Below, one piece after another: positions 1-62,262 of a stretch of 64,000 nucleotides of DNA. The first letter of the stretch is position 1, and each line of letters starts with the position of its first letter. Where the stretch lies: NCBI RefSeq assembly GCF_003473485.1, contig NC_053046.1, positions 878,001 to 942,000 on the forward strand. The letters are read 5' to 3'. The DNA comes from Medicago truncatula. Lineage: Eukaryota; Streptophyta; Magnoliopsida; Fabales; Fabaceae. The translations under genes and the position numbers were made by a program. The notes under the pieces are model-generated. The model saw only the letters and a program-made list of their open reading frames with translations. It did not search any database and had not been told where the DNA came from.

Positions 1-134
1 ATGCTATTCCTTAATATCTACTTTGTCGAACTTCTTTTTTAATTGGTGGGGCAATAATGAACTGATCCTAGATTTCTTTTTTTCCAGTTTTGTAGTTTAC
101 CAAACATAACATCTTTACTTTGATATTGTTGTAG

Positions 135-1160
<1,026 letters not shown>

Positions 1161-1980: not shown

Positions 1981-2744
1981 AGATTTACATACCTTCTAAC
2001 CAAACTCGGTGGATTCTCAGTACTCAATTCCCTAAAAACCAAAGGGTTATTAAGGAAAAAAAAACTCCCTTTTTTATGGTAATCAATGGAAAAATATAAG
2101 GTGAATGTTCTATGGGTCCCTTAGCTTACTCTAAAGTAGCTCGGATTTCTTAGATCATAACTCTCAATTGTACAAAATCTATCGGAGGATACGATCTGAT
2201 CAACGTTTTTTTTTGTCGACTGTAACTTTTATTGGCTAATTTCAAAGGTTGAGCAATCCACTGACCCGATTGACATTTATTTTCTGACTGTAACTCCTGA
2301 TGGACCAATTTCAAAGGTTGAGGAATCCACGGGACGCAAAGACACAAAGAGCAAGCTTAAAAGGAATCCATGACCGATCCCTTTTATGTTTATGTTTGTA
2401 TGTGACATTTGACCTTCTACGTAGAGTTTAATGGTCATGTATTGTGTTTATGAAGATTAATTTTGCCTTTCAAAAGGGTTAAACGGGCAGAGCATGTTGT
2501 TCGTTTGTCTTTTATTAATGTTTAATTAATGATTGATTATATATAATGAGATAAAATAATAAGAAGTGTAGAGATTAATTGAGATTGGTATGCAACACAC
2601 ATAGAGTAGTGTTTGTTTGAGAAAATCCAAAAATAAGAAAGAAAGTGGGAAAAAGAAGAGAAAAGAAATGGTGGTAATCTAGAAAAGGACAAGAAAAGCG
2701 GGGAAGGGGAATTGTTAAGTGAAAAGGACAGACAGCTGTAAACA

Positions 2745-2900
2745 GAGAGAGAATTAGGGTACCGTACCGTACGGATGAATGTGAAATGAAATGAATAAAA
2801 AAGGAAACGTGAAATGTGTATAATCAATGTTTGAGGTAAAGTATTGAAGTAGAAAAGATTATTTGCATTTGCATGGTTGTTTTGTTTGAACATTTCTTCT
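2745..2900 (+). promoter_or_regulatory. Possible promoter of the C/D-RNA array
   Basis: Just upstream of the first RNA module is GAATTAGGGTACC (about 2751-2763), close to the telo-box core (AAACCCTAA on the other strand) common in plant ribosomal-protein and snoRNA promoters, and a TATAATCA stretch near 2819. The position suits a promoter for the whole array, but nothing else supports it. Confidence 0.25.
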
Positions 2901-2915
2901 TCTTCTTCTTCTTCT

Positions 2916-3027
2916 GGAGGCAGTGATGAACGGTTGTTGTGTTGTGTTGTGTTGTGTTGTATGGCGAGGCGTTTCTTCTTTCTAACGCAGCCACACACAC
3001 CCATTTTTTCTTTCTTTCTGAGCCTCC
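2916..3027 (+). ncRNA. C/D-like RNA module A0
   Basis: Terminal stem GGAGGC (2916-2921) / GCCTCC (3022-3027), C box GTGATGA (2923-2929), D box CTGA (3018-3021). Internal hairpin: TGGC (2962-2965), GAG, GCGTT (2969-2973), loop of 10, AACGC (2984-2988), single A, GCCA (2990-2993). A (GTTGT)n run lies between the C box and the hairpin. Length 112 nt. No guide target recognised. Confidence 0.7.
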
Positions 3028-3165
3028 CATCCTTTTCTTTGTCACCACATTGCATTTCAACTTTGTGAGTGAGTTTCTTACTTCACTTCACTCTCGCTTT
3101 GTTTCTCTCTTTTTCACCTTCTTCATTTCATTTTCTTTTTTTCTCTTCTTCTTCTCTTCGAGGAC

Positions 3166-3256
3166 GAGGCTGTGATGATCGATCAAAACAGAACAGAGTA
3201 GTCTCATGGCGAGGCGACTCCCGCAGCCATGCTTCTGTTCTCTCTCTCTGAGCCTC
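3166..3256 (+). ncRNA. C/D-like RNA module B0
   Basis: Terminal stem GAGGC (3166-3170) / GCCTC (3252-3256), C box GTGATGA (3172-3178), D box CTGA (3248-3251). Internal hairpin CATGGC (3205-3210), GAG, GCG, loop ACTCC, CGC, A, GCCATG (3226-3231). An outer arm AGAACAG / CTGTTCT pairs outside the hairpin. Only 91 nt, the shortest and cleanest class B copy. Confidence 0.72.
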
Positions 3257-3339
3257 CCTCCTTTTCTTCTTTCTACACCCCCTTAATACATTATTAGGGT
3301 TTCAAGTCTCTCTTTTTCACCTCATTTCTTACTTCTCAG

Positions 3340-3382
3340 CTACAAACAAATTTCATGATATTCATTTTCTTCAACAAATGAG
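3340..3382 (+). ncRNA. Putative host exon E1, unit 0
   Basis: Bounded by CTTCTCAG (acceptor-like) and AG|GTACATTTC (donor-like). It ends in TTCAACAAATGAG, matching the ends of E1 in the other units (GAAGAAATGAG). TTAGGGTTT, a telo-box-like motif, lies about 40 bp upstream. Confidence 0.45.
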
Positions 3383-3490
3383 GTACATTTCTCTTGCCCA
3401 TTTTCATATTAGTTATCAGAAATTGATTTTCTACTAAAAACACCTTCTCATTTGAACTAAGTTTTTAGATTTTTCTACTCTTCAGATTCT

Positions 3491-3529
<39 letters not shown>

Positions 3530-3809
3530 AAAAAAGCTTTAACAAACATGCTCTCATTTCATGTGTTGTAGACCCTCTATATTTGCCAAAGTAGTCTTGC
3601 ATTAGACATTAGTCTCAAATTCAAGAGTAAATATGGTTCCGGCAACAAAGAATCTACATATTGTCTTTTTTAGTTCATCCTTTATCTTTTATTGCTTCTA
3701 TGTGTGTATTCTGCAAAAATGTTTTATTCAGAATATTAATACTACCATCATGAATAAATATGTTGCTCATTCTTTTGATCTATTTCGCTATATATGTTTT
3801 CTTTTCCAG

Positions 3810-3881
3810 TGCTTTTGATTGTTGAATCTGAGCTAACCTATTTAGACCTGTTTCAATCTTTTAAATTGGATGAGCCCAAAG
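3810..3881 (+). ncRNA. Putative host exon E2, unit 0
   Basis: Starts after TTCTTTTCCAG and ends at CCCAAAG|GTACAAC. The block TGCTTTTGATT ... CTATTTAG ... CTGTTTCAATCTT ... GAGCC recurs in later units with the same borders. No conserved reading frame. Confidence 0.45.
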
Positions 3882-4072
3882 GTACAACACATTGATTACA
3901 TCTTCATACCCTTGGCAAAAAGTTAAATTCATAATCAACTCAAAACTTTGTTAATCTTTGATACAAGGTGTTGCAACCTTGTTTTGTTTTAGTTTTAATG
4001 GTTGTACAAATATCATTTCACTTTTGTGAACCTTCAATGTTTTTGCCAAAATAATATTGCATTGTGCATTTA

Positions 4073-4207
4073 GCAACACTCTCTAACACTCCACTCTTTT
4101 ATGGGATGAAATTAATGTGGATCCTACAATTTAGAAATGAATCCCACATAAAGTGGTGACATCCACATTGATTTCCTCCAATGAGAGTGAGTTTTAGAGA
4201 GTGTTGC
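4073..4207. mobile_element. MITE with TIRs in unit 0
   Basis: Terminal inverted repeats GCAACACTCTCTAACACTCC and, reading inward from the right end, GCAACACTCTCTAAAACTCA. TA dinucleotides flank it (4071-4072 and 4208-4209). About 135 bp. Other units lack it at the matching place. Confidence 0.75.
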
Positions 4208-4572
4208 TAGCACCCCTCTTTGGTCAAATATGTTGACACTTGTATATTGTGAGCAATTTAGCTAACAAAGTTAGCGGAGATGGAAGTGTCGCAACTTGGA
4301 TAAGGATTACATTTGGTTTTACTGCTAATAACAACAGTTTCTTCCCAAGGCTTTACCTCAATTCTAAGAGGCCAAGTAACATCTGTTAGATTTAACTGAA
4401 TTTTCATTGAATGGGAGTGTTAAAGTTATTGAATCATTCAACTCTTTTCTACTTTTACGTAGTACTTATTATTATGTATATCCTGACAGTAAGCATTGAA
4501 GATTTGCATTGCATGTAGTTGAATACTTGTTTCTTATTCTAATTTGTTAGATTTTATTTAATTGAATCGAAT

Positions 4573-4640
4573 GAGGCAATGATGATGGATGGTTGTGGCG
4601 AGGCGTTTCTGATGCAGCCACCGCTCTCTTTCTGAGCCTC
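4573..4640 (+). ncRNA. C/D-like RNA module A1
   Basis: 68 nt, the size of an ordinary box C/D snoRNA. Stem GAGGC (4573-4577) / GCCTC (4636-4640), C box ATGATGA (4579-4585), D box CTGA (4632-4635), and an internal CTGA at 4609-4612 that could be D'. Hairpin GTGGC-GAG-GCGT / ATGC-A-GCCAC, with a G-U pair in the upper arm. Confidence 0.75.
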
Positions 4641-4883
4641 CTTTTTTGTTGCCATTGCAAGTTTTTGAGTGAGGCTTTGAAGAGTTTCTCACTCTCATCG
4701 CCGATGATCATTCCTACTGCACTCCTGCCTACCACCACCACCACCACCACCTCCACCACCGTCAACTAAAACAACAAAAGCTCGCTTGCTTTCTCTTTCA
4801 GCAATCTTCATCATCATCATCATCCTCGTCGAACTCAATTCGACCTTCTTTTTTTCTTTCTCACTTCTTCTTTTGGATATAAC

Positions 4884-5045
4884 GAGGCAGTGACGATGTT
4901 TCATGCAACTGCATCAGATCAGACATTGTGAGTGAAGAAGAAAACAGCCGTGTCATGGCGAGGTGACTCCAACTTGCAGTGGCAGCCATGCTTGTGCTCC
5001 TCCTCTTCACTCTGTTCTCTGACAGTACACCTCTATCTGAGCCTC
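4884..5045 (+). ncRNA. C/D-like RNA module B1
   Basis: 162 nt. Stem GAGGC (4884-4888) / GCCTC (5041-5045), C box GTGACGA (4890-4896, one base off), D box CTGA (5037-5040). Hairpin CATGGC (4954-4959), GAG, GTGACT / AGTGGC with one mismatch, A, GCCATG (4985-4990). Outer arm AGTGAAGA / TCTTCACT (8 bp). Confidence 0.7.
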
Positions 5046-5469
5046 TTATTCTTATTCGAAACTCCCCACACTCTTACTCACCCCTATGCTATTCCTCTTT
5101 TCTACACCTCTTACCATTTCCTTTCCTTACTTGGATTTTTTTTTTTTTTTTAATTTCTTTAATTTGTTTTTTGAATCTCTAGCATTAACTATTTCCCCAA
5201 CTCTCCATCTGCCATTTCTCTTTGCGCTTTTTAATCAATTTAATTTTATGTTATTTCTTGATGATATTCTTTTTTCTGTTTTGTTTCTGAGTCAGGAATG
5301 AGAGGCTGATATAGATTAGGTTTTATGTCTGTCTGGTTTCAGTATGAATCAATGTTAAATCCAGAGACAAAAGACTCTTTAAGGATGAAATGAGTTATGT
5401 ATAACTCTCTCTCTCTCTCTCTCTCCCTCCCTCCCTCTCTCTCGTTTTTTACCGCTTCTTTCTTTTCAG

Positions 5470-5550
5470 GTTGTGGCACAAACAAAACACAAGATGTCAA
5501 TATCTGTAGAAGCTCAAGAAATTTGATATTTATTTTGACGAAGAAATCAG
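5470..5550 (+). ncRNA. Putative host exon E1, unit 1
   Basis: 81 nt between TCTTTTCAG and CAG|GTACATTTC. It contains ACAAGATGTCAATATCTG, shared with unit 2. Same length and borders as the unit 2 copy. Stop codons and indels between copies argue against coding. Confidence 0.5.
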
Positions 5551-5656
5551 GTACATTTCTTTTTCATTCATCTCATTGACAACCCCAAGTTCATATTATG
5601 CGGATATTAATATTCAGTTCATGTCCTGTAGACCTTCTAACTTTTGTCAAAGTAGT

Positions 5657-5741
5657 ATTTTTTTTTTTTTTTTTGATAAATCAAAAGCAAAATGACATCC
5701 AAAAAGAATAGCACCCAACTAAGTTGGTACCCTACTCTAAT
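5657..5741 (-). mobile_element. 5'-truncated poly(A) retroposon fragment, minus strand
   Basis: Flanked by a perfect 16-bp duplication CTTTTGTCAAAGTAGT (5641-5656 and 5742-5757). On the minus strand the 85-bp body ends in TTTTGATTTATC plus poly(A). Parent family not identified (SINE or LINE tail). Confidence 0.8.
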
Positions 5742-6261
5742 CTTTTGTCAAAGTAGTCTTGCATTACACAATAGTTTTAAATTCAAAGTGTGATCATGTT
5801 TTTGCTCTCAATACTTTACTCTTCCTACTAGAAATGCCACTCATTAACCTACTGCATTTAAGAAATATTGAACAGTTTGATATTGGGTAAAATTGATTAC
5901 TCACTTCTATAGAAAACAAGTATCTGGTCAAATATGTTGACACTTGTAAACTGTGAACAAATTAGCCAACCAAGTTAGTGGATATGCAAGTTTCATAACT
6001 TGGATTCAATCTTTTTTGGTTACAACGATTCAATCTGGTTTCACTCCTAATAATGATATTTTGATAATTTCATTAATTTACTAATGGATATGGATATCTG
6101 TTACTACGAATACCATTACCTTATCTGTATCCATTAACTAAGAGTTAATTGTGAATAATGTTTGAACTGAATGACGATAAGGTAAGTATTGAAGAAGATT
6201 TGCATTGCATGTAGTTGATTCAACACTGCTTCTTCTTTTATTTTTTCTTTCTAATTTGAAA

Positions 6262-6353
6262 GAGGCAGTGATGATTGATGGAAGGATGGTTGTGTGGCGA
6301 GGTGTATTTGACGCAGCCACCACTATCCTTCTGTCTCTTTCTTTCTGAGTCTC
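6262..6353 (+). ncRNA. C/D-like RNA module A2
   Basis: 92 nt. Stem GAGGC (6262-6266) / GTCTC (6349-6353, one G-U), C box GTGATGA (6268-6274), D box CTGA (6345-6348). Hairpin GTGGC-GAG-GTGT / ACGC-A-GCCAC: the upper arm changed from GCGT to GTGT yet still pairs. Confidence 0.7.
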
Positions 6354-6491
6354 CTTTTTTGTTGCCATTGCATTGCAAGTTTGTGATTTTGAGTAGGTGA
6401 GGCTTTGATGAATGAGTTAGTTTCTCACTCTCATTGCCAATGATCCATCGTTTCTATTTCTCTCTCTCTACTCTACACACACACACACACC

Positions 6492-6522
<31 letters not shown>

Positions 6523-6625
6523 GCAAAAGTGCGCTCGCTTTCTCTTTCTACTTCTTCTTCAACATCCTCGTCGTTGTTCGAACTCAACGCGACCTTTTTT
6601 TCTCTCTTCTTCTTTTTGATATTAC

Positions 6626-6780
6626 GAGGCTGTGATGATCCATGTTTCAGATCAGGCATTCTGAGTGTGAAGAACAACACAGCTGTGTTATGGCGAGGCG
6701 ACTCTGTCTGTTGCAGCCATGCTCCTGCTCTGCTTCTTCACTCTCTTCTCTAACAAACAATACACTTCTATCTGAGCCTC
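6626..6780 (+). ncRNA. C/D-like RNA module B2
   Basis: 155 nt. Stem GAGGC (6626-6630) / GCCTC (6776-6780), C box GTGATGA (6632-6638), D box CTGA (6772-6775). Hairpin ATGGC-GAG-GCGAC / GTTGC-A-GCCAT. Outer arm TGAAGAA / TTCTTCA. Confidence 0.72.
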
Positions 6781-6883
6781 CTATTCTTCTTCTACACCCC
6801 CACACTCTTAGTCTCTCTGGAGTGAGAGGCTGAGATAGATTAGGGTTCAGTCTGTCTTTTTCACCTCAGCTCCTACTTTTCAG

Positions 6884-6964
6884 GTGGTGGTACAAGCAAA
6901 ACACAAGATGTCAATATCTATACATGCTTAACAAATTTGATATTGATTTTGTTGAAGAAATGAG
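6884..6964 (+). ncRNA. Putative host exon E1, unit 2
   Basis: 81 nt between CTACTTTTCAG and ATGAG|GTACATTTC. Very similar to the unit 1 copy. GATTAGGGTTC (telo-box-like) lies about 45 bp upstream. Confidence 0.5.
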
Positions 6965-7019
6965 GTACATTTCTTTTACATTCATCTCATCTCATTCACA
7001 ACACCAACTTCATTAGTTA

Positions 7020-7345
7020 TTTAGAATGAAAAATCAGTTTTTTTTTGCTGAAGTTAGTTATCAGAAAACGATTTTCTGAGAAACTACTAAAAATTAGTTA
7101 TTTAGAGAGTAATTTTTGGAGATATTTTAAAAAAGCAGAAGTTGTTTTCTGTTTGTATACTAGAATGAAAAATCACTTTTTTAAAAATAAAAAAAAAATT
7201 TAGTTACCAGAAAATGATTTTCTGAAAAATTACTAAAAGCAGCTTCTAATTTGAAGCAGGTTTTAATGTTTTTTCAGATGGAGAAAAACTGCTAAAAGTA
7301 TTATTTTGTTTAAAAATGTGATTTTTTTATGAAAAAAGCTGTAAC
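7020..7345. repeat. AT-rich dispersed repeat inside unit 2
   Basis: Carries GAAAAATCAC, two related TCAGAAAACGATTTTCTGA-like palindromic blocks, and ends ATGAAAAAAGCTGTAACAAACATG. A shorter relative sits in unit 0 (about 3410-3560, around a long T run). Probably an old MITE present before the units duplicated; no clear ends found. Confidence 0.4.
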
Positions 7346-7658
7346 AAACATGCTCTCAATTTCATGTGACGCAGACCCTCTAACTTTTGCCAAAGTAGCC
7401 TTGCATTAGACATTAGTCTTAAGTTCAAAATGTGATCCAATTTTCTATGTGTGTATTCTGCAATGAATATGATTCTGCAAAGAAGAAATGTGGTTTCGGC
7501 AACAAACAATCTACATATTGTCCTTAGTTCAACTTTTCTTTCTTTTATGTGTGTATTCTGCAAAAAGTGTTCTATTCAGAATATTAATACCACCATCATG
7601 GATAAATATGTTGCTCTGTCTTGACCTAACTTTTGGCTATATATGTTTTCTTTTCCAG

Positions 7659-7750
7659 TGCTTTCGTTTGTAGTCTTTCAGAGTCAACTTTGGAGCTGCT
7701 AGATGACCTATTTAGCTCTTTTTAAATTTCAAAATGGGAAGAGGCTAAAG
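7659..7750 (+). ncRNA. Putative host exon E2, unit 2
   Basis: Starts after TTCTTTTCCAG and runs to GGCTAAAG, but the next bases are ATATAA where other units have GTACAA, so the donor looks lost in this copy. Confidence 0.4.
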
Positions 7751-7940
7751 ATATAAATTGATTAAAATCTTCATACCGATGGCAAAAAGGTAGATTCATA
7801 ACCAACTGAAAACATTGTCAATCTTTAATATAAGATGTTGCAACCTTGTTTTGCTATAATTTTCATGGTTGCGAACCGACACAGATTGGGAATGGTTCGG
7901 TTTGTTGAACTGTTTCTTGTGGTATGTTGGGTATGTATTT

Positions 7941-7993
7941 GAATGCGGATGTTGGATGGATGGTTCTGCCAAGGAGTTTCTATCATGAGCCGA
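7941..7993 (+). pseudogene. Remnant of an A-class module, unit 3
   Basis: GGATGGATGGTTCTGCCAAG, then GAGTTTCTATCATG, matches the 5' half of the unit 5 A module. The C box, right arm (ACGCAGCC) and D box are gone, and no B module follows. Confidence 0.6.
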
Positions 7994-8018
7994 AATATGT
8001 TTTATATATAAAAGGATA

Positions 8019-8205
8019 TTTTGTCAACGTTTCTGTTATTCTAAAATCTGGATGTGCAAAATACATATCGTGGCTACATATTTTGTCAACGTTTCTGTTA
8101 TTCTAAAATCTGGATGTGCAAAATACATATTGTGGCTACATATTTTGTCAACGTTTCTGTTATTCTAAAATCTGGATGTGCAAAATATGTTGCTCCTTGA
8201 CCTAA
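8019..8205 (+). repeat. 62-bp tandem repeat, three copies
   Basis: TTGTCAACGTTTCTGTTATT recurs at 8021, 8083 and 8145, with GGATGTGCAAAATACATAT in each period. The copies are almost identical, so the expansion is recent. It sits where the rest of the unit 3 modules should be. Confidence 0.9.
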
Positions 8206-8234
8206 CTTGTGGCTATATATGTTTCCTTTTCCGG

Positions 8235-8274
8235 TGCTTTTGATTGTCGTCTTCAAAATAGGAAGAGCCTAAAG
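8235..8274 (+). ncRNA. Shortened second copy of exon E2, unit 3
   Basis: TGCTTTTGATTGTCGTCTTC through GCCTAAAG|GTACAA, lacking the middle of E2 and with CCGG in place of the CCAG acceptor. It belongs to a local duplicate of 7620-8010 spanning about 8195-8500. Confidence 0.4.
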
Positions 8275-8884
8275 GTACAATAATTTTATTAACATCTTCA
8301 TACCCATGGCAAAGAAATAGATTCATAATCAACTGAACGTTGTCAATCTTTAATATAAGATGTTGCAACCTTGTTTTGCTATAATTTTCATGGTTACAAA
8401 CTGACACAGATTGAGAAATGGTTCGGTATGTTGAACTGTTTCTTCTCGTGTGTTGGGTATGTATTTGAATGAGCCTAAATATGTATTATATATATTAAAG
8501 GGTATTTTGTTAAATTTTTTATGTTGTCATCGTTTCAGTTAATCTAAAATCCGGTTGTGCAAAATACATATTTTCCTAAGGATCATTTTTTTGCCGTCCG
8601 GATTCTAAATTTTGCATAAAACGCGTTCGGATTTTAAAATCCGGACAATAATTAAAGAAAGACAAGCTTGTCCTTACAAACAGAAAGCGTCCTTCAATAA
8701 ATTGTGAGAAAGTGTCAACCAAGTTATCAATGCAGCCACTAGTTTCCGGTCAAATATGTTGATACTTGTATATTGTGAGCAATTTAGCCAACCAAGTTAG
8801 TGGAGATTCAATTGTGAAAGCTTAGATTAAATCTGGTTTTACTTCTAATAATAACAGATGCTTCCCAAGGCTTTAGCTCATTCT

Positions 8885-9455
8885 ATCCATGTTAAATAGG
8901 CACCCCCATTGTGACACCAATTAATACGGTGCCTATAAAGATGGGTGCTTTATAAGGCACCCTCTCTCTCCTATTACTCATGGGAATTAATTCTATTTTT
9001 TTCTTTATTCAATTGTTGTATTATTTTAATATTAAAAAGTAAATTATATATTAGTTGCAAGAGTAATATTTAATTGATCAACATTAAATTTTCAACAAAA
9101 ACTTTTTCTAAAACAAAAAATAATTTACCCATTTGAATAGGAAAAAAACAAAACAAACATACAGTGATTGTATTTAAACAAAACAACGAATAATTTACCA
9201 TCGTTTATTTTATATTGTTTTCTCAAGTTTTAACTTTGTTTATAATTTATAATTAAATTACTTCAATATTTTAAAAGTATATAAATTATTGTTAAAATTT
9301 AATGATATAGAGTTATTGCAGGGACCCAATTAATAACTATTTTGAGGTGCGGGGTTGGAGATATTGGGTGCTTATTAAGTATTAATTATAAAACGAATGG
9401 CGTGTACGGTCGGGGCCCGTTTAAGCACCCAAATAGAGTGCTGCATTGTGGATGG
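8885..9455. mobile_element. Non-autonomous DNA element of about 570 bp in unit 3
   Basis: Interrupts unit sequence that is continuous near 4370-4400 (AAGGCTTTACCTC then AACATCTGTTA). The ends are ATCCATG... and ...TGTGGATGG, with TCT on both sides (8882-8884 and 9456-9458). The interior is AT-rich with GC-rich ends containing GGCACC / GGTGC blocks. Superfamily uncertain. Confidence 0.6.
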
Positions 9456-9568
9456 TCTAACATCTGTTATATTTAACTGACTTATCATTAAATGGGAGTG
9501 TTAAAAGTCGAGTCATTCAACACTTTTCTACTTTTCCTATTACTTATTATGTATATTCTGATGGTAAG

Positions 9569-9792
9569 TGTTGAAATTTGGGGCCTAACTCATCCTTACA
9601 AAACCTGCTTGTAAGGTGAGGAATGCCTCCTCTCTATAAACTCTTCTCAAGAGTCCTATCTATCCGATGTGGGACTAAATCCACCCCCTCAAAGCCAACA
9701 CAATGAAGGTGTTGGAAGCTGCAATGAAGGCAAACCAAAGGCCGCAATTTAGGCCACAGGGGCGGACCGCAATAAAGGCGGGATTTCCAACA
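9569..9792 (+). mobile_element. Solo LTR (or TRIM-like) of a TG..CA LTR family
   Basis: Begins TGTTGAAATTTGGGG and ends GATTTCCAACA. The flanking 5-bp duplication is GTAAG / GTATG. The matching place in unit 0 (near 4489) is uninterrupted, so this inserted after the units duplicated. Related to 40618-40850; both contain CTTGTAAGGTGAGG and ATGTGGGACTAAATCCACCC. It is an isolated fossil end with no internal genes. Confidence 0.75.
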
Positions 9793-9882
9793 GTATGTAT
9801 TGAAGATTTGCAATGCATGTAGCTGAATACTTGCTTCTTATTCTAATTTTGTTGGGTATTATTAAATTGAATTAAAACGAAT

Positions 9883-9958
9883 GAGGCTGTGATGATGGAT
9901 GGATGAATGGTCGTGGCAAGGCGTTTCTGACGCAGCCACCACTCTCTTTCTGAGCCTC
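9883..9958 (+). ncRNA. C/D-like RNA module A4
   Basis: 76 nt. Stem GAGGC (9883-9887) / GCCTC (9954-9958), C box GTGATGA (9889-9895), D box CTGA (9950-9953). Hairpin GTGGC-AAG-GCGT / ACGC-A-GCCAC with a five-base loop; the bulge is AAG instead of GAG. Confidence 0.75.
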
Positions 9959-10181
9959 ATTTTTTGTTGCCATTGCAAGTTCTTGGGTGAGGCTTTCATG
10001 AGTTTCTCACTCATTGCTGATGATCATTCCTACTAAACTCCACTCTACCACCACCAACAATAACAACAACAAAAGCTCTCTCTCTCTCTCTCTCTCTGCA
10101 CCATCATCATCCTTGTCGCCATCGCCGTCGTTGAACTCGATTCGACCTTCTTTTTCTCTCTCTTCTTCTTTTGGATATAAC

Positions 10182-10343
10182 GAGGCAGTGATGATGTTTC
10201 ATGCAACTGCATCAGATCAGACATTGTGAGTGAAGAAGAAAACAGCCGTGTCATGGCGAGGTGACTCCAACTTGCAGTTGCAGCCATGCTCCTTCTCCAC
10301 CTTTTTGCTCTCTTTTCTGACAGTACACCTCTATCTGAGCCTC
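10182..10343 (+). ncRNA. C/D-like RNA module B4
   Basis: 162 nt, the same length as B1. Stem GAGGC (10182-10186) / GCCTC (10339-10343), C box GTGATGA (10188-10194), D box CTGA (10335-10338). Hairpin CATGGC-GAG-GTGACT / AGTTGC-A-GCCATG, fully paired with G-U pairs. Confidence 0.75.
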
Positions 10344-10417
10344 TTATTCTTCTTCAACACCCCCTACTCTCTCTCTCTCACTCACTCTTGTTTTTCACCT
10401 TATTACTTTCTTTTCTG

Positions 10418-10498
10418 GTGATGGCACAAACAACACTCAAGATATCAATATCTGTAGAAACATAAGAAATTTGATATTGATTTTGTTGAAGCTATGAG
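10418..10498 (+). ncRNA. Putative host exon E1, unit 4
   Basis: 81 nt matching units 1 and 2 (GATATCAATATCTGTAG), ending ATGAG|GTACATTTC. The acceptor reads TTTTCTG rather than TTTTCAG, so it may be skipped. Confidence 0.4.
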
Positions 10499-11124
10499 GT
10501 ACATTTCTTTTTCATTTATCTCATTGACAACACCAAGTTCATTGTCGTGTGGATATTCATATTCAATTTCATGTGCTGTAGAGTCTTGCATTACACATTA
10601 GTTCGAAATTCATAATATGGTCACATTTTTGCTCTTTTAGCTATGATACTTTACTCTTCCTACTAGAAATACCATTAATTAAACTACCACATTTAGAAAA
10701 TATCAAACAGTTTGAAGTGGGTAAAAGTAATTACTTATTACTTTTGTTTTATGGAAAATTAGTATCCGGTCAAATATGTTGACACTTGTAAATTGTGAGC
10801 AATATTGCCAACAAAGTTAGTGGAGATGCAAGTATCACAACTTGGATTCGGTCTGGTTTTACAGCTCATTACCGTGAAGCCAATTAACTCTGTTAGATTT
10901 ACTTTGTACATGATAGTTGGTCTGTCATTGCTGCTTATTAGTAGTTTCCGGCAACAAAGAATCTGCTAATTGTCCTTAGTTCATTTTTGATTGCTGTTAT
11001 TTGTGTATTCTTCAAAAGGTGTTTGATTCAGAATATTAATGCATACCATCATGGATAAATATGTTGTTCTTTACCTAACTTTTGGGTGTATATGTTTTGT
11101 TTTTCATTGCTTTTGATTTTAGGT

Positions 11125-11209
11125 TTCAAAAGATCCACTTCAGAGTGAACGTTGGAGCTGAGCACCTATTTAGGTCTGTTTCAATCTTCAAAATGTGAAG
11201 AGCCTAAAG
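11125..11209 (+). ncRNA. Putative host exon E2, unit 4
   Basis: E2 homology starts at about 11109, but the usual acceptor is lost. An alternative AG lies at TGATTTTAG|GTTTC. It ends GCCTAAAG|GTACAAC like other units. Confidence 0.4.
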
Positions 11210-11385
11210 GTACAACAAAATGACAAATTGATTAACATCTTCATACCCATGAATAAAAGATAGATTCAACAAACTGAAATTTTTGTCATTCTTTAATACA
11301 AAGTGTTGCAGCCTTGTTTAGTTTTAGTTTTAATGGTTGAGAACGGACACCGATTGGGAATGGTTTCGTTTTTTGGGTATTGAAT

Positions 11386-11475
11386 GAGGCAGTGATGATG
11401 TATGGATGGTTCTGGCAAGGCGTTTCTATCATGTTGACGCAGCCAGCCATCTTTCTCTTTCTGATTCTGAGTCTC
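11386..11475 (+). ncRNA. C/D-like RNA module A5
   Basis: 90 nt. Stem GAGGC (11386-11390) / GTCTC (11471-11475), C box GTGATGA (11392-11398), D box CTGA (11467-11470). Hairpin CTGGC-AAG-GCGT / ACGC-A-GCCAG: both sides of the outer arm changed together relative to GTGGC/GCCAC. Confidence 0.7.
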
Positions 11476-11627
11476 TTCCTTTGCAACTACGCATTAGTTT
11501 TTGAGGCTTTGCTGCTCTCAGAGATGATTCTGTCTGTCTTTGAGTTGCTTTCATTGCCAATGATCATTCCTGCTGTCTGAGTTTGTACAAACCACTATTG
11601 TTCCGTGATACACTATTTAGTCAAAAT

Positions 11628-11728
11628 GTTGTCAAATAGCGGCTATAGTGGTGTTATAGCACTCAAGCACTGTTACGTAGCAGAATCTGAACAATCTGCT
11701 ATTTGCCACCATCCACAATTGACAACAC
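11628..11728. mobile_element. Small inverted-repeat element, units 5 and 6 family
   Basis: Starts TTGTCAAATAGCGGCTATAG and ends ATTGACAAC, with GCTATTTGCC near the right end. Related copies occur near 12268-12345 and 13622-13740. All copies seen lie in units 5 and 6, so it probably entered their common ancestor. Confidence 0.5.
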
Positions 11729-11771
11729 TGCTTCTCCTCTCTCTCTCTACTCACAACAACAACACAATCAT

Positions 11772-11774
<3 letters not shown>

Positions 11775-11825
<51 letters not shown>
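11775..11825. repeat. (CT)n microsatellite
   Basis: About 50 bp of nearly pure CT between modules A5 and B5. The equivalent place in unit 4 (about 10075-10097) has a shorter CT run. Confidence 0.95.
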
Positions 11826-11826
<1 letters not shown>

Positions 11827-11895
11827 ATCCTCATCAAACTCAAACCCTAACCCTTCATGATCTTCAATCTTTCTTCTTCATCTTTTGAATATAAC

Positions 11896-12072
11896 AAGGC
11901 AGTGATGATACTTCATGTAACTGATTCAGACATTGTGGGTGAAGAAAACAGCCATGTACTGGCGGGGTGACTCTGTGTTTGTTGGTCCTTCCATAGACGC
12001 ACGTATTCGCAGCCATGCTCATGCTCCTCCTCTTCATTCTCATCTCTGACAAAATACCTCAATCTGAGCCTT
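11896..12072 (+). ncRNA. C/D-like RNA module B5
   Basis: 177 nt. The stem is AAGGC (11896-11900) / GCCTT (12068-12072), a paired change from GAGGC/GCCTC. C box GTGATGA (11902-11908), D box CTGA (12064-12067). Hairpin TGGC-GGG-GTGA / TCGC-A-GCCA around an enlarged loop. Confidence 0.65.
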
Positions 12073-12748
12073 GTATTCTTCTTCAACACCCTCCCTCTTC
12101 ATCTCTCACCCTCTCTTCCTAGCTTTATTTTCTTTTCTTGGAAAGCAGTAATAAAAAGCACTGCATTTCAACGTTTTCTGTCAAGTGTCATCTAATAGCA
12201 GTTATAGCTTGTAGCGCTATAGAACTACAACATAAGTAATTTGAACAAACCTCTATGTCTGTGATATGCCTATAATTGTTGTCAAATAGCGCCACTGTAT
12301 CATAGCAGAACTTGAGCAAACCACAATTTTCCATGATCCATCGCGGTTTCAGTCATCTTGACCCTATGCATGTTTTCTACACCTGTTATTATTTCCTTTG
12401 CTTTTTCCCCCATTAACGGCGCCATTCCCCCTTTTGAGCGTCCTATTTTTATTCAACACCCCCACACTTACTCGCCTACACGTTATGTATGATTTCTACA
12501 CCTGTTACTCTTTCCTTTGCTTTCTTTTTTTTAAAAAGAATCGACTATAGTTTTTGTATTTCCAGCAGATTTGTAGTAAACATGGTTCCGAATACAAAGA
12601 ATCTATAAGTTGTCCATAGTTTATCTTTTATTGCTTTTATGTGTGTATTCTGCAAAAAGGTATACTATTCAGAATACTGCCGCATATCATCATGGATAAA
12701 TATGTTCCTTATTGACCTAACTTTTGGCATACCTGTTTTCTTTTCCAG

Positions 12749-12855
12749 TGCTTTTGATTGGAGTCTTTCAAAAGATCCACTTCAGAGTGAACTTTGGAGC
12801 TGCTTGTTTACCTATTTAGGTCTTTTTCAATCATCAAAATGGGAAGAGCCTGAAG
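12749..12855 (+). ncRNA. Putative host exon E2, unit 5
   Basis: 107 nt between TTCTTTTCCAG and CTGAAG|GTACAGC. The fullest E2 copy, with TCCACTTCAGAGTGAACTTT in the middle. No E1 was clearly found in unit 5. Confidence 0.5.
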
Positions 12856-13037
12856 GTACAGCAAATTGATTAACATCTTCATACCCATGGAAAAGAGATA
12901 GATTCATATCAACTGAAAACATGGTCAATCTTTAATACAAGGTGTTGCAAGTTTTAATGGTTGAGAACTGACACAGATTGGGAAATGGTTCGGTTTGTTG
13001 AACTGTTTCGTCTGGTGTGTCGGGTATTGAATTGAAT

Positions 13038-13123
13038 GAGACAGTGATGATGGATGGATGGTTCTGGCGAGGTGCTTCTATATCTTGTTGACGCAGCCAG
13101 TGTTCTCTCTCTTTCTGAGTCAT
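13038..13123 (+). ncRNA. C/D-like RNA module A6
   Basis: 86 nt. C box GTGATGA (13044-13050), D box CTGA (13115-13118). The terminal stem is weakened (GAGAC / GTCAT, three inner pairs). Hairpin CTGGC (13064-13068), GAG, GTGC / ACGC, A, GCCAG (13096-13100). Confidence 0.55.
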
Positions 13124-13341
13124 TTGCAACTACTTATTGTGAGGCTTTGCCGCTCTCAGAGCTGACTATTTCTGTCTCTGAGTTGCTCTCATTGCCAATG
13201 ATCATTTCTAGTTCTGTTTTCTCTACCCATAGCAACAGCAACAACATCCATGTCCTTGTTCTCTCTCTTTCTCTCTTCACCATAACCAAACACAAACCCT
13301 TCATGATCTTCATTCTTTCTTCTTCTTCTTCGGGATATGAT

Positions 13342-13517
13342 GAGGCAGTGATGATATTTTGTACAACTGATTCAGATATTGTGAGTGAAGAGAAGAGCCT
13401 ATGTACTGGCGAGGCAACTGTGTCAGTGGATCCTTTCACAGACGTATGTAATCGCAGCCATGCACTTTGCTCCTCCTCTTTGCTCTCTTTTCTGATAAAA
13501 CATCTAATCTGAGCCTT
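13342..13517 (+). ncRNA. C/D-like RNA module B6
   Basis: 176 nt. Stem GAGGC (13342-13346) / GCCTT (13513-13517, with an end G-U), C box GTGATGA (13348-13354), D box CTGA (13509-13512). Hairpin TGGC-GAG-GC ... CGC-A-GCCA with a large loop. Confidence 0.62.
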
Positions 13518-14095
13518 GTATTCTTCAACACCCCTACTCTTCATCTTTTTCCCCTGTTCTAGCTTAATTTTCCTATCTAGAAAAGCAGTAAAGATTACCT
13601 GTTTTCAACATTTTCAATCCAGTGTTGTCAAATAGCGGCTATAGTGGTGCTATAGCACTACAACATAGCGGAATTTGAGCAAACTGCGATGTCCACCAAT
13701 GTTGTCAAATAGTGCCACTGTGGCATAACAGAATATGAGTAAAAAAATATTTTCCACAATCAGTGATTGACTACACAGTTTCATTCATCCCGCCCATATT
13801 TTCTTTCTTAACTGGCACTTTTACCACCTTTTTTTGAGTATCCAGCATTATTTCCCCCACATATTCTCCATTCGGCACTTCGATTTATGTTTTCCTTAGA
13901 CTTTTTTAATAATTCTACAATATTTGTGTGCCATTATTTGGCAATATTATTCCTATTTTGTTTGTGAGGTCGAGTGTGAGGCTGAGATAGATTATGGTGA
14001 GGGTCTGTCTGGTTTCCATCTGAACCATCTCTTAATCACCCACCTCTAACACTAACTCTGCTACATATGTTTTCATCTTATCTCTTACTTTTCAG

Positions 14096-14160
14096 GTGCT
14101 ACAAGCGGGACACGAGATCCCAATATATAAATGGGAAGTTGATTCTGCTGAAGAAATGGG
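14096..14160 (+). ncRNA. Putative host exon E1, unit 6 (end of array)
   Basis: Between TCTTACTTTTCAG and AATGGG|GTACATTTG. After it, recognisable unit sequence ends, so the array's 3' end is here or just beyond. Confidence 0.4.
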
Positions 14161-16295
14161 GTACATTTGCCATACGGATTTTCATATTCAGAAGAATCAT
14201 CAAGCCAAATAATAAGGATTCGTACGAGTACTCTTGATCATATATTGCAAGCTGGTCTGTCTTTGGGAGCTTGATCATAAAATCAGAAATTTGGTCCTCA
14301 ATTATTCTTCTCCAGTCAAGCCAAACTTGGTCCCCAAATTTTGGATGTTATAAATTGTAAATACGAATAAATTACATGCCCTGTAATTGTTATCTTCTTT
14401 ACTTTATACGTTTTGGGTATGAGTTACATTGTTCTCTTGGGTACAATTATGAGGGTAACTTCCATTTAAAATATTTCCATGGTTTATTTTTTTCTTTCAA
14501 TAATGATTCATTCCGTTTTGTATTATTGGAATAAGAGATGGCCGAAGTCAGGGAGAAAGAACTAATGAAGGGCATCAAACCTGTGTGTATGCTAATTGCT
14601 AACATGCTGTCAATGTTCTCCACCAGCTCTACCAACATAACATATAGCAGTTAAAAGAAGAGGGAAAATGGCAAACAATCATTTTGGCCTCTAAAAATGT
14701 AAGTCGGTGTCACATTAGTATTAAAATGTATTGAAACTGCAATTGCATCATTAGTGTCTCTTTTTTTTAGTAATTTCACAGACTAAATTGATCAACAAAA
14801 TATGCATTCGAGAACTAAATTAACAACTTAAAAACAATTAAACATAAAACATAAACTGATAAAAATATAAAACTTAACCAGAAATATTGGCAACACAATC
14901 ACATACATGACATGAGGACCGTATTTACATCGGTTGTAGCTTATACACATAAAATCAACATCTAAGCGTGTTACAAAGACCCAAATTAACATAAACTGAT
15001 TTATCTACTAAGAAACAAGAAGTTAGTGTTTTATATTTTTCATATTTGGGGAATTTTAAAGGAACCAATTTATGTTTTTCCTTTAGTTTTAGTCCCAAAA
15101 GACACATTAGCATTTCATTTGTCCTTCAAACTAGCCACGTTAGCTTTTTTCAATGAGTTAACGTCTCCTTTTAACAATAGTTGTTTATGACTAACAGAGG
15201 GCAGAAAGGAGGATTAAACAGTGTTTTCGTTTGAGTCGGGGACTAGTGTGGCAACATCTTAAACTTTTAAGGACCAAAATGGTGGCAAGCATAAACACCA
15301 TTGGTGCCGTTCGTAATTTCATATCGACAACCAAGAAATTACGTGTGTAGTCGCAGGACGTAGAATGAGTGAGAAAGGAAGCATCATGTGCTATGCAATG
15401 CACATAACCAATTCAGCTACCATAAGCAGCATGATCTTCAACACATACACATAGCAGCAAAATATTCCCTCTGCTAATAAAGCTTTGGAACAGTTAATTA
15501 CAAAGACCTGATCTTGAAGTTTAAATAAATCATTATTTACAAGGATCCCTCTTCACACGGTCCAACCCTGAATGTTTGTTAACTTAACAATGGCCGGCCA
15601 TCGAACACTTGCTTGCTACATTTACCATTTTAAGTTCTGCAAAGAGAAGAATCACAAGACTAAATAATAGTATGACCTGGTCTTGCTGTTATAATAATGA
15701 AAAGGATACACTCGGTCTAACCTCTGAACTAGTCGATGTACAACATTATTCATTCAACTCAACCGGGATAGAATTTCTTGATGATGCCCTTTCTGTTTAT
15801 TTTAATTTATCCATTTCTCATGCGTATATAAGATGAGTACCTAAGTATACAAGATGCATCATTCTGCTGACATGCATCAGCAGCATTCATGCTCTGTTCA
15901 TTCCTTTCAAGAAGCAAAAAACCTCTTTGAATTGGGTTAGCAATGATTCTCTGCAAATATATTTGTCATGAAGGCTCACAAAATAGACAAAGGCTTTCAA
16001 ATGAGGTAAAAGGGAGAATGAAATGAAAATAACAGATGAGTACAATGGATTCCTTTTCCATTCTCTTCTTTCAATTTCTTTTGGACTAAACACAGCTCAA
16101 CACACGACAGTAAATCACAAGTAGCAATATTTTATCAAAATCTAGCTTTATTTTATTAATAAAGGTGCATTACAGCAGCATCTAGATGGAGGAAATGTTC
16201 TTGTAACATTAACATATGTTTGGTGTTCTTAAATGATAATAAGGAGCATTTTTATTTATAATTAATTACAGATAACACATGCATTATCAAAGTAA
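14161..16295. other. Spacer between RNA array and VOC genes
   Basis: No gene recognised. It contains the Mutator-like MITE at 14679-15283. The other open frames are short and low-complexity. Confidence 0.6.
14679..15283. mobile_element. Mutator-like MITE with TIRs of about 45 bp
   Basis: The left end TCATTTTGGCCTCTAAAAAT is mirrored by the right end (inward: ACCATTTTGGTCCTTAAAAG), with similarity continuing for about 45 bp. The flanks GGCAAACAA (14670-14678) and GGCAAGCAT (15284-15292) resemble a 9-bp duplication with two changes. No transposase frame. Confidence 0.65.
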
Positions 16296-27498: not shown

Positions 27499-30308
27499 AT
27501 GGGGAGAAGCAAGAGAGGCGATACATTTACAGGGATGACTCTCCATCCAGTACCACCAGATGAATCAGGCGAAGGATTACCATATGCTCCTGAGAATTGG
27601 CCACAACAAGGTGACATCTGGGGATGGAAAACTGGTAAAAGACTTCATAACAATGGATGCTTTCAAGATCGTTATCTTTACTCACCGTCCCGATTGAGTA
27701 CTCAGAAAGGTGGATCCAGTCGCAAACATCGCCATATCTTTGCTAGCAAGCTCTCTGTTGAACGATACATCAAAGCCACTTTTCCTGATTCTGATATTGA
27801 TGCCTTCTTTTCTTCTTTCTCATGGAGGATTCCTTCTCTCAATGCTTCCAACGGTATTTTTTTTTATTTTATTTTTTATTTTTTATGATACTAGATAGCT
27901 AATTAATGTTTCTTAGATTTGTAGATTTGATTGCATAATTTTCATTTATATCTGTTGCGAGGATTTAGCATTTTCTGTATTGATTGATCATTTTAATTTC
28001 ATTTTTTGCTTCATTAATTTTATCGATCTGTAGTGATTTCAATGTGTCATTTTCGTGGGATTATAATTTAGATCTCTGCTGAGTTTAATTACGCCACATT
28101 TTCTGAATTGAATTTATATTAAGTAGCATTCAGACCTGCATCAATTTGTCTGCTCTTTATATTGCGCTGTTTGTTTATGAAATTTTATTAAATTTTTAGG
28201 TATGAATCTTTGTGATTTTCAAATCGTAACAAACCATGCTTATTCATATAGCATTCTTATAAGCAAATTTGTTTAATATTCCTTCTGGCCACTTTTACAA
28301 GCAAAACTGTTGCTGTATTTTTTTTTTTTTTTTTTTGAAGAAGGCTCAAATTGACTATTGAACCTGAGACCTTGAGGAGGAGTACACTCTGAGGTCCCAA
28401 GCCAATACCACTAGGCCAACCCAAATGGGTTAAAACGGTTACTATTATAAGCAAAAATTCACTTTTTAGATTCATTGAATAATTAATGTATTTGTTCTAT
28501 ACTATATACTAGATACATCCGTTATTCAATGAATTTTAAAAGTAAATTTTTGCTTATAATTGTGACCGGCGAGAGTAATATAATTGGAAGAATTAATGAA
28601 AATCTCTTATCTCCTTTATATATTGTTATAGATGCTAAACATGAATAACCTATGTTTTATATCTGAAAGAATTTTTTTTTTCTTCCATGGGTAAATGTCT
28701 CTTATCTCCTTTATATATTGTTATAGATGCTTAACATGAATAACCCATGTATGTTTTATATCTGACAAAAGACTTTTTTTTCTTCCGTGGGTAAATGTAG
28801 ATTTAGCATCTTGAGATGATGATCACTTTGCTAAATAACTCTTGGTGTTGTTTTAATTGTATGGTAGGATGCAATATGGTGCCGATAGCTGCGGTACCTC
28901 TTCAACAGATACCGTTGATAATAGAATCAGACTCTGATGACAGCAAGACCGATGTTGTTAGGTGCAAAGCCAGAAATAAAAAGTGCGACAGTCTGAAGTT
29001 GGACGTAGTAGAAAAACATTCGCCGGCCATGCCTTGTGATATATGTTGTTCTGAGTCTGGATTTTGTCGTGACTGTTCCTGCATTCTTTGTTGCAAAACA
29101 GTTAATTCTACTCTTGGTGGGTACAGTTATATCAAGTGTGGCGTAAATGTCGGTGAGGGAATATGCGGCCATGTTGCCCATGTGGAATGCGCACTTCGAT
29201 CTCTCTTGGCTGGCACGGTTGGGAAAAGTTTTGGATTAGATACTGAGTATCATTGTCGGCGATGTGATGGAAGGACCGACCTCGTCTCTCACGTTGAAAG
29301 GCTTGTTGAAATATGCAAAGCTGTTGACTTGAACGATGAGATTAAGAAGAAAGTTTTAGACCTTGGTGCTTGTCTCTTGCGTGGTTCAAAGAAACCCGTT
29401 GCGAAGGAGCTATTCAATCGTGTTGAACTGGCCATCGCAAAGGTATTTTTCAACTGAGTTTAGGTGATAGAAATGAATAATATCATGTTTGTGATGAGTG
29501 TAGGTGTTGAATTGCACATATTGTAAAGGCTTATTATGACCAAATTGATAACTTTGTATCAGCTAAAATGTGTGTCCAATGGTGAAGATATCAAGATGGA
29601 TGATGACAATCATATGGTTCATTCTGAAGGTAAAAGTTCTCTCTTACTCCCTAGTTGTCTAGCTTTTGCTACTTTCCGCTCACATCACAGCTTCTATAGC
29701 AATTTTGCATGCTTTATGGAGGTGTATAACTGCATATATGTCAGTTTTTTGGCTTCTTGTAAGACTTCATAGACATAAACATAAAGTGAACCTTTATAAT
29801 CCTTCACTTCTGCAACTGGCAACACTGCCGAACTTGTAAATTCAGTTTTATTTGCACCTTTGTATTAGGATTGAATATTTTGTGCTCATTATCAGGCTTA
29901 CCAGATCATGGCACTGATCCAATGGAAGTAACTATGAATGGAAGCCCTTCAAATGTTAGATTGAAGGAGGAAGCTTATGATTATCGTTCACATTCATTGA
30001 AATTTGAGGCTGACATTGATGACGTCATGGAGACTCTGAGAAAGTCGCAAGAGCTGGAATGTAAGGTGGTGGAAGAAAGACTCCGTGCACAACAGATTTA
30101 TTTGCAGGGTTTGTATGACCAAATCGACCGTGAAATGGCTGAATTGGAATGCCCGAACTTAACTCATTCAGAGCCCTTGTTCCGTGCTATCAGAGAAAGG
30201 AAAGAACAGATAAGACAAGAATTGGCGAAGTATGAAGATATGAAAAAGGTGGCCAGTGGTTTTAGTAGGACATCAAACGATATTTCAAAGGAAATTTTCA
30301 ATAATTAA
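27499..30308 (+). CDS. OBERON-like PHD-type zinc-finger protein
   Basis: Four exons: 27499-27853, 28868-29442, 29563-29629, 29896-30308; all GT-AG and in phase; 469 residues. The N-terminus (MGRSKRGDTFTGMTLHPVPP) runs into a conserved plant region. Exon 2 has a Cys/His cluster, CDICCSESGFCRDCSCILCC and later CGHVAHVECALRS and YHCRRCDG, which is an atypical PHD finger of the OBERON type. LVSHVERLVEICKAVDLNDE then follows. The last exon is a charged helix or coiled coil (from about DDVMETLRKSQELECKVVEE). OBERON proteins are nuclear chromatin readers that act in meristem and embryo development. The role of this member is inferred from the domain only. Confidence 0.82.
28277..28577. mobile_element. 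Stowaway MITE interrupted by a SINE, in intron 1
   Basis: Left part TATTCCTTCTGGCC..., right part ending GTGACCGGCGAGAGTA: decayed TACTCCCTCCGGTCAC-type ends in TA. The body TTCATTGAATAA / TTATTCAATGAA is palindromic. A SINE at 28307-28436 splits it near the left end. Confidence 0.75.
28307..28436 (-). mobile_element. SINE nested in the Stowaway element
   Basis: Minus strand: GGCCTAGTGGTATTGG (A box), CTCAGGTTCAATAGTC (B box), then a poly(A) tail (T run at 28320-28336). MITE sequence is duplicated around it: GGCCACTTTTACAAGCAAAA (28287-28306) and GGTTACTATTATAAGCAAAA (28437-28456), 16 of 20 identical. Confidence 0.8.
28604..28798. repeat. 95-bp tandem duplication near the intron 1 acceptor
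   Basis: CTCTTATCTCCTTTATATAT begins at 28604 and again at 28699. Both copies run through ATAGATGCT and GGGTAAATGT. It lies about 70 bp before the acceptor of OBERON-like exon 2. Confidence 0.85.
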
Positions 30309-46821: not shown

Positions 46822-47768
46822 TGAAGTTGTGAAATTAAATTGATATTAAAATTAAATTGATATTAAAATCACTCATACTTTATTTATAGTTAAAAACTTT
46901 TCTTATTAGTCAAATGACATGACCTACAATGTCCATCCTTTACTCGACTATACAGGTAGTGCATGAATTTCCCTTGTTGGGGTGATCATGGTGCTCCATA
47001 TTTTGGCTCTTAGCTTCCAATTTCACGGCATGATCTATTGACAAGGTCACAAACATTATTTATATCTATCGCCTTTTGTGGTTAAGGGTGATATAAAACA
47101 TTTGACCTCGTTGTCCAGTAGAGTTTTGACTTAGTTTGAGATCGTTAAACACACGTTCTTAGTCAATAGACTTGAGAGCAAATCAATTTTCCTTTGCTCT
47201 TATGTCCTAGCTTTTGCATAACCTTCCATTGATTGAAAGTTTTCCTTGCCTAATCATTAATTGTCTATCTATTGATGTCACTTAGAAGGATAATTATTTG
47301 TAGGCGTAAACAAAGATAAACTAGAATTCTCCCAAACTATAGGGAGTAAATTGTATTTAACCCTTTATTCCATACAATCAAAGGTAAACTAGCTATTTGA
47401 AAATTCTTGCAAACACCGTCTTCTCATAATATCGAAGGAGATTCCGTCTTCAATTTTCAGAAACTAACATTTCTCTCCCTCTCTGACATTTTATTAACAT
47501 TTCCCACTCCCCATACTAAAAATAAAAAATTGTGTCTGAAATGCAAGTAAACACGTAGAAAAGTGATAATTAGACAACTTTCTATCCAGAAGTTTTTATT
47601 TTTTTTGTTTTAAGTAAAAAGTTATCCCGTTTTTTATTGTTTAAACTCCTAAGGAAATGGCCAAAATTCTTATGCATAGCCTTGGACCAATTTTGTCTTG
47701 ACTCTAGTCTTGGGTATCCACTTTATAGTTCATTTCATATCATATGATATCTTTCCTCCTTATTGAGT

Positions 47769-62204: not shown

Positions 62205-62262
62205 AACTTGTGTTTCTTTTATGAGTTTATTTGGATGCATTCAACAAGTGTTTATTTTTAGG

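Follow-up and report, generated by a model that had tools for sequence, protein, structure and literature searches.

A tandem array of box C/D-like RNAs with a conserved internal hairpin in Medicago truncatula

What kind of RNA is encoded by a tandem series of modules that have the ends of box C/D small nucleolar RNAs (snoRNAs) but match no Rfam family of guide snoRNAs at its cut-off? The question is raised by an array in a 64,000-nucleotide stretch of the Medicago truncatula genome (contig NC_053046.1, positions 878,001–942,000, forward strand), called the window here and numbered from its first base. An original prediction had described the locus as twelve C/D-like modules within a repeated noncoding host gene. 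The explanation that we consider probable is that the modules are orphan box C/D RNAs that were amplified and derive from a noncoding transcript, and in which a docking hairpin would take the place of a guide.

Layout of the array and its end elements

All twelve modules were located (Table 1). They span 2917–13517, all on the + strand, and each has a 5-bp end stem, a box C and a box D. Short (S) and long (L) forms alternate six times: the odd-numbered modules are short (68–110 nt) and the even-numbered modules are long (91–177 nt), and in all six units S and L form a pair, 139–420 nt apart. The alternation in units of about 1.6 kb that had been predicted agrees with spacings of 1.5–1.7 kb, but not with a single gap of 3.6 kb; the distances from one short module to the next are 1656, 1689, 3621, 1503 and 1652 nt.

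The 5' arm of the end stem is exactly GAGGC in 10 of the 12 modules (AAGGC in M10 and GAGAC in M11), box C is RTGATGA in 11 (GTGACGA, with one change, in M4), and CTGA, box D, is present in all. The 3' closing arm is GCCTC in seven modules, GTCTC in two, GCCTT in two and GTCAT in one. Both elements of the predicted opening, GAGGC plus RTGATGA, were therefore found, but not their direct joining – one A or T stands between the 5' arm and box C. When RTGATGA was required to follow GAGGC without a gap (at most two mismatches), there were eight matches in the window and none in the array. The literal search misses every module because the wording of the prediction omitted the single intervening base. 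Box C near the 5' end, box D near the 3' end and a terminal stem, the features by which box C/D snoRNAs are recognised, are all present.

The arms of the end stem pair in 59 of 60 cells, while the five positions directly outside them pair in only 31 of 60. Pairs 1 and 4 of the stem each vary between G-C, G-U and A-U, which are compensatory changes.

With both strands of the 64 kb scanned, a descriptor made of the stem, box C and box D had 10 matches, every one a + strand module of the array; 200 dinucleotide shuffles of the region produced none. The two modules not matched are M10 and M11, which do not pass the G+C cut of this descriptor. A covariance model built from six modules recovered the held-out M1 (E 6.5e-11) and the five remaining long modules (E 3.9e-5 to 0.65); the rest of the window has no match with an E of 1 or less.

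The absence of a coding frame surviving between units, also predicted, was borne out for long frames. Three open reading frames (ORFs) of at least 120 amino acids touch the array – 13054–13512 on the + strand, and 2537–3055 and 13134–13544 on the − strand – and none of them is repeated. No other array ORF of this length is listed, so the units have no long frame in common, and a coding host gene was rejected.

An internal hairpin common to all modules

All twelve modules contain an internal hairpin with the sequence TGGC-RRG-GY, a variable loop, and GC-A-GCCA. This is a feature new in this analysis, absent from the earlier account. It folds as a TGGC/GCCA helix, a 3x1 internal loop in which RRG lies opposite a single A, a GY/GC helix, and beyond this as many as three more pairs. 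Next to TGGC on its outer side, the pair is A-U in four modules, G-C in three and C-G in two, with three modules unpaired; an upper pair of the hairpin is U-A in five short modules, A-U in five long modules and unpaired in two.

More than half of the core positions (28 of 50) are invariant across the twelve modules. At the 14 pairs common to all, 160 of 168 cells are paired and 12 cells are altered on both sides. None of 2000 partner shuffles reached 160 paired or 12 double-changed cells (the shuffle maxima were 159 and 11). These compensatory changes at several pairs support both the hairpin and the end stem.

The same structure was recovered by RNAalifold with no structure supplied. In the short set (five short modules and M2, with M1 excluded), it recovered the end stem, the hairpin and the loop. 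In the long set (the five long modules, with M2 and the short forms excluded), it recovered these and outer helices. The short-set alignment is misregistered at the 3' ends of M5 and M9, so the end-stem pairs of these two modules are undercounted there. An outer helix of the long forms has 44 of 45 cells paired, a count made with a pattern that favours pairing and with M6 reframed; RNAalifold also recovered this helix independently.

The possibility that the internal loop is a second kink-turn was rejected by eye because RRG faces a single A and the pairs that follow, which show compensation, are of Watson-Crick or wobble type. We know of no named RNA motif with an RRG/A 3x1 loop. At least 120 stretches of viral contigs fit a bare-hairpin pattern, and were treated as chance because the pattern is short. 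Six genome-contig records fit a longer hairpin pattern, all bacterial and none from a plant; these were also treated as chance. One 14-mer among six core words searched in the literature occurs as well in two Trichomonas papers. No publication on this locus was found in the openly licensed (Creative Commons) library searched.

Guide function

The original prediction could not match the modules to any known guide snoRNA, and an Rfam covariance search gave the same result: no array module has a match at the curated gathering threshold, and the modules are not members of a known Rfam C/D family. When matches with E up to 5 were admitted, the only snoRNA matches in the array were to SNORD63 (22.3 bits, cut-off 43), sR3 (15.8 bits, cut-off 41) and sR1 (15.4 bits, cut-off 45), so that the best snoRNA scores are about half of the cut-off or less.

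The modules could still be ordinary guides of 2'-O-methylation, with a ribosomal or small nuclear RNA target unmatched so far, and with a hairpin that merely positions box D and the guide. We regard this as unlikely, though it survives better than the other alternatives. In its favour, the end stem and both boxes have the canonical form, and a survey of plant snoRNA families describes many C/D families of narrow range (PMC5122169). Against it, no Rfam guide family reaches its cut-off in the array. The 12 nt before box D are pyrimidine-rich and alike among the short modules, but they differ between the two forms, being CTCTCTTT-like in the short modules and CACCTCTAT-like, drifting to ACATCTAAT, in the long. 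A possible box D', an internal CTGA, is found in 8 of the 12 modules, in several places; in M4, M8, M10 and M12 it is at one common place, and a D' guide in the long form is therefore possible. C'-like words are found in seven modules, but no internal C'/D' pair is common to all twelve. The most conserved part of the interior is base-paired and has compensatory changes, which also counts against a guide reading.

Exon-like blocks and a possible host transcript

Two types of exon-like block recur in the array. Block A has five copies, before units 2, 4, 5 and 6, with two copies before unit 4, the first of them beside a decayed module described below. Block B also has five copies, after units 1, 2, 3, 4 and 6. 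The 3' splice AG is kept in three of the five A copies and four of the five B copies, and the 5' splice GT in four of the A copies and all of the B copies. The repeated noncoding host gene of the original prediction thus has recurring blocks in its favour, but their splice sites are partly lost and the two blocks flank the S-L pair in only three of the six units (2, 4 and 6). A spliced noncoding host transcript is plausible but unproven.

In five aligned spacers (unit 1 excluded), inspection by eye revealed no conserved splice-site pair between S and L. An exon between S and L was rejected on this basis, and S and L may therefore share an intron. The spacers at 4641–4883, 6354–6625 and 9959–10181 have a conserved GAGTGAGGCTTT..CTCACTC stretch that could fold as a small hairpin.

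A shared intron would be compatible with a long noncoding RNA with snoRNA ends (sno-lncRNA), in which two C/D ribonucleoproteins (RNPs) cap a fragment of ca. 340–690 nt, as in the Prader-Willi region. This is improbable as an account of the array, less likely than guiding. The constant pairing of S and L over 139–420 nt, the lack of a conserved splice-site pair in the five spacers, and the blocks that flank the pair in units 2, 4 and 6 would fit it, but the spacers differ greatly in length and are conserved less well than the modules, the splice sites are partly lost, and the usual fate of plant snoRNA clusters is to be processed to individual RNAs. A plant precedent is lncCOBRA1 of Arabidopsis, described in extracts of PMC9175010 as a stable nuclear RNA of ca. 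500–600 nt with two snoRNA domains.

Conservation, duplication and a decayed copy

The repeat covers the whole 1.6-kb unit, including flanks and spacers. Identity between units 2–6 (10 of the 15 unit pairs; unit 1 aligned badly) is 0.84 in the core elements (655/778), 0.76 in the rest of the modules (1144/1506) and 0.60 outside them (2683/4460). Over all 15 unit pairs the values are 0.787, 0.690 and 0.573.

The 3.6-kb gap (3621 nt) contains a relict of a short module, about 1687 nt after M5. In the alignment it has nothing left of the box D side, and the end stem, box C and hairpin are disrupted; its flank still aligns to units 5 and 6, in blocks that are 74–78% identical. The relict shows the fate of a copy no longer maintained.

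Two other features lie within the array. In the same gap, a 62-nt unit is present in three head-to-tail copies at 8016–8201, with a fourth, diverged copy at 8519–8580. Between M2 and M3 there is an inverted repeat at 4071–4209. Its match to MIR5269 scores 59.8 bits (cut-off 60), and it has weak matches to MIR807 and MIR6140. It looks like an insertion of a miniature inverted-repeat transposable element in the array; MIR5269 is presumably a Medicago entry.

That the modules come from a transposable element or some other repeat which tandem duplication has multiplied, and have an inherited C/D look and no present function, is very unlikely: the whole unit is repeated, GAGGC...GCCTC resembles a short inverted repeat and the folding energies are ordinary, but the inverted arms are only 5 bp and have boxes C and D inside, the core elements are better kept than their surroundings and their paired positions change in step, the relict shows the effect of drift, and the covariance model has no match at E up to 1 elsewhere in the 64 kb.

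A proposed explanation

The identity of the modules as tandem box C/D-like RNAs is well supported by the descriptor, the covariation, RNAalifold and the relict. The favoured explanation – amplified orphan RNAs with a docking hairpin – builds on what the array displays, namely the modules, their stems and covariation, the conserved loop, and tandem duplication with one decayed copy. The transcription, processing, protein binding and function of the modules we infer as follows. The twelve C/D-type RNAs, in two related forms, would most likely be cut from one + strand noncoding transcript. The end stem and boxes C and D would bind 15.5K/SNU13, NOP56, NOP58 and fibrillarin. In C/D snoRNAs these core proteins fix the RNA ends and shield the RNA from exonucleases, and here they would likewise set the module ends and protect them. 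The working part would be the hairpin with its invariant 3x1 loop, not an antisense stretch, and may dock a specific protein or RNA. The array could thereby provide a structured RNP of the nucleolus or nucleus in many copies.

A more specific version is offered only tentatively, as we consider it less likely than not: the C/D core would be no more than a stabilising cap, the internal hairpin with the RRG/A loop would bind a dedicated partner, and the modules would form a lineage-specific class of RNP whose two forms were amplified and possibly released as snoRNA-ended pairs.

Several results weigh against the docking-hairpin explanation. The splice sites of the exon-like blocks are kept only in part. 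The shuffle control ignores the relatedness of the modules and its margin is narrow (maxima of 159 and 11 against 160 and 12); because relatedness is ignored, the 12 double-changed cells amount to only about 4–5 events. The covariation terms of RNAalifold are weak (+1.52 and −0.02 over the long and short sets). Folding energies of the modules are ordinary, with a mean z of −0.91, one of the twelve (M5) below −2, and M8 and M11 positive; 60 non-module control windows of the array had a mean z of −0.48, with 15% below −2. The pyrimidine stretch before box D that is common to the short modules could be a guide, and the internal CTGA of eight modules, with its one common place in four long ones, points in the same direction.

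The best-known orphan C/D arrays are those of mammals, and what they do there is debated. If its copies keep a structured interior instead of a guide, an array in a plant would be an easy experimental system for C/D RNAs without a methylation target. It offers twelve variants that arose naturally, as well as the decayed one, and its motif is delimited sharply enough for mutation and for use as bait.

Table 1. Modules, relict and exon-like blocks of the array (positions in the window)
Feature	Position	Strand	Remarks
M1, short	2917..3026	+	GAGGC-A-GTGATGA ... CTGA-GCCTC, internal hairpin; matched by covariance model built without M1, E 6.5e-11
M2, long-type	3166..3256	+	shrunk to 91 nt
Exon-like block B after M2	3340..3382	+	aligned copies, AG before and GT after
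Exon-like block A before M3	3810..3881	+	AG and GT present
M3, short	4573..4640	+	smallest (68 nt)
M3 internal hairpin	4596..4620	+	type case: TGGC GAG GCGTTTCTGATGC A GCCA; equivalent in 12/12 modules
M4, long	4884..5045	+	box C GTGACGA
Exon-like block B after M4	5470..5550	+	
M5, short	6262..6353	+	sole module with folding z below −2 (−3.73)
M6, long	6626..6780	+	
Exon-like block B after M6	6884..6964	+	
Exon-like block A before relict	7659..7750	+	5' GT lost
Relict, decayed short module	about 7945..7995	+	nhmmer with short profile 7949–7985, E 0.00079; alignment
Exon-like block A, truncated, before M7	8235..8274	+	3' AG lost
M7, short	9883..9958	+	
M8, long	10182..10343	+	
Exon-like block B after M8	10418..10498	+	3' AG lost (TG)
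Exon-like block A before M9	11108..11209	+	3' AG lost
M9, short	11386..11475	+	
M10, long	11896..12072	+	end stem AAGGC/GCCTT, compensatory change
Exon-like block A before M11	12749..12855	+	
M11, short	13038..13123	+	most degenerate; end stem GAGAC/GTCAT, 4/5 pairs; folding z +1.41
M12, long	13342..13517	+	
Exon-like block B after M12	14096..14160	+	

Other features of the window

The window also contains two C/D snoRNAs that are in Rfam, snoZ199 at 44083–44169 (53.8 bits, cut-off 47) and SNORD18 at 44276–44350 (41.6 bits, cut-off 41), 106 nt apart. This pair is probably an ordinary plant dicistronic snoRNA gene. A TATAAATAG-like word stands about 150 nt upstream of it.

The first part of the window (1–1160) has exon remnants, the final frame of which resembles what we take to be the C-terminus of a cysteine synthase, and may serve as a synteny anchor. 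In the stretches 27499–29457 and 47763–50593 there are pieces coding for OBERON-like PHD and DUF7081, and for a PPR protein that has a DYW deaminase; these genes indicate plant DNA. Two similar ORFs on the − strand, 59594–60166 and 61623–62240, are probably paralogues encoding GNAT acetyltransferases; 59594–60166, the one of the pair that was scanned, matches Acetyltransf_3 (E 9.4e-27).

Comparison with known systems

U3, U8 and U13 are RNAs with a C/D core, a structured interior and a role other than the guiding of methylation. The array is like them in its C/D core and structured interior, but its modules have no match to the Rfam families of these RNAs, either at the curated threshold or at E up to 5, and we know of no hairpin in U3, U8 or U13 equivalent to the one with the RRG/A loop. 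Canonical plant C/D guides, such as snoZ199 in the same window, share the terminal stem, box C and box D. They differ in that the array has no Rfam match, its conserved part is a base-paired hairpin, and the sequence before box D is not common to both forms.

Tandem amplification is known among plant snoRNAs. According to passages of PMC6172812, half of the snoRNA families of rice expanded through tandem duplication, and the Zm-19 locus of maize has five C/D snoRNA repeats at 138-nt intervals within an intron. Tandem amplification alone is therefore not new, since Zm-19 already shows tandem intronic C/D snoRNAs in a plant. Compared by description, the two loci are alike in having tandem C/D copies, which in maize lie within a plant transcription unit. 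Zm-19 has one short RNA at close spacing, whereas the array has two forms, units of 1.5–1.7 kb and exon-like blocks.

The sno-lncRNAs and lncCOBRA1 have two snoRNA domains per RNA (extracts of PMC9175010), and the S-L pairs could be such ends. In those extracts lncCOBRA1 is intergenic and has two annotated snoRNAs, unlike the array, a series of six tandem pairs recognised from sequence alone.

The system to which the original prediction likened the array is that of SNORD115 and SNORD116 in mammals, which occupy 29 and 48 tandem introns of SNHG14, with one RNA in each (sections of PMC11608373). Both are tandem series of non-identical C/D-like RNAs without known targets, within a long noncoding host in the mammalian case, and to this extent the likeness stands. 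It does not extend to the layout or the interior: the copy number is lower, at twelve modules, and these are of two forms in S-L pairs, with two modules per stretch between exon-like blocks. Each module, known here only as DNA sequence, also has the conserved internal hairpin.

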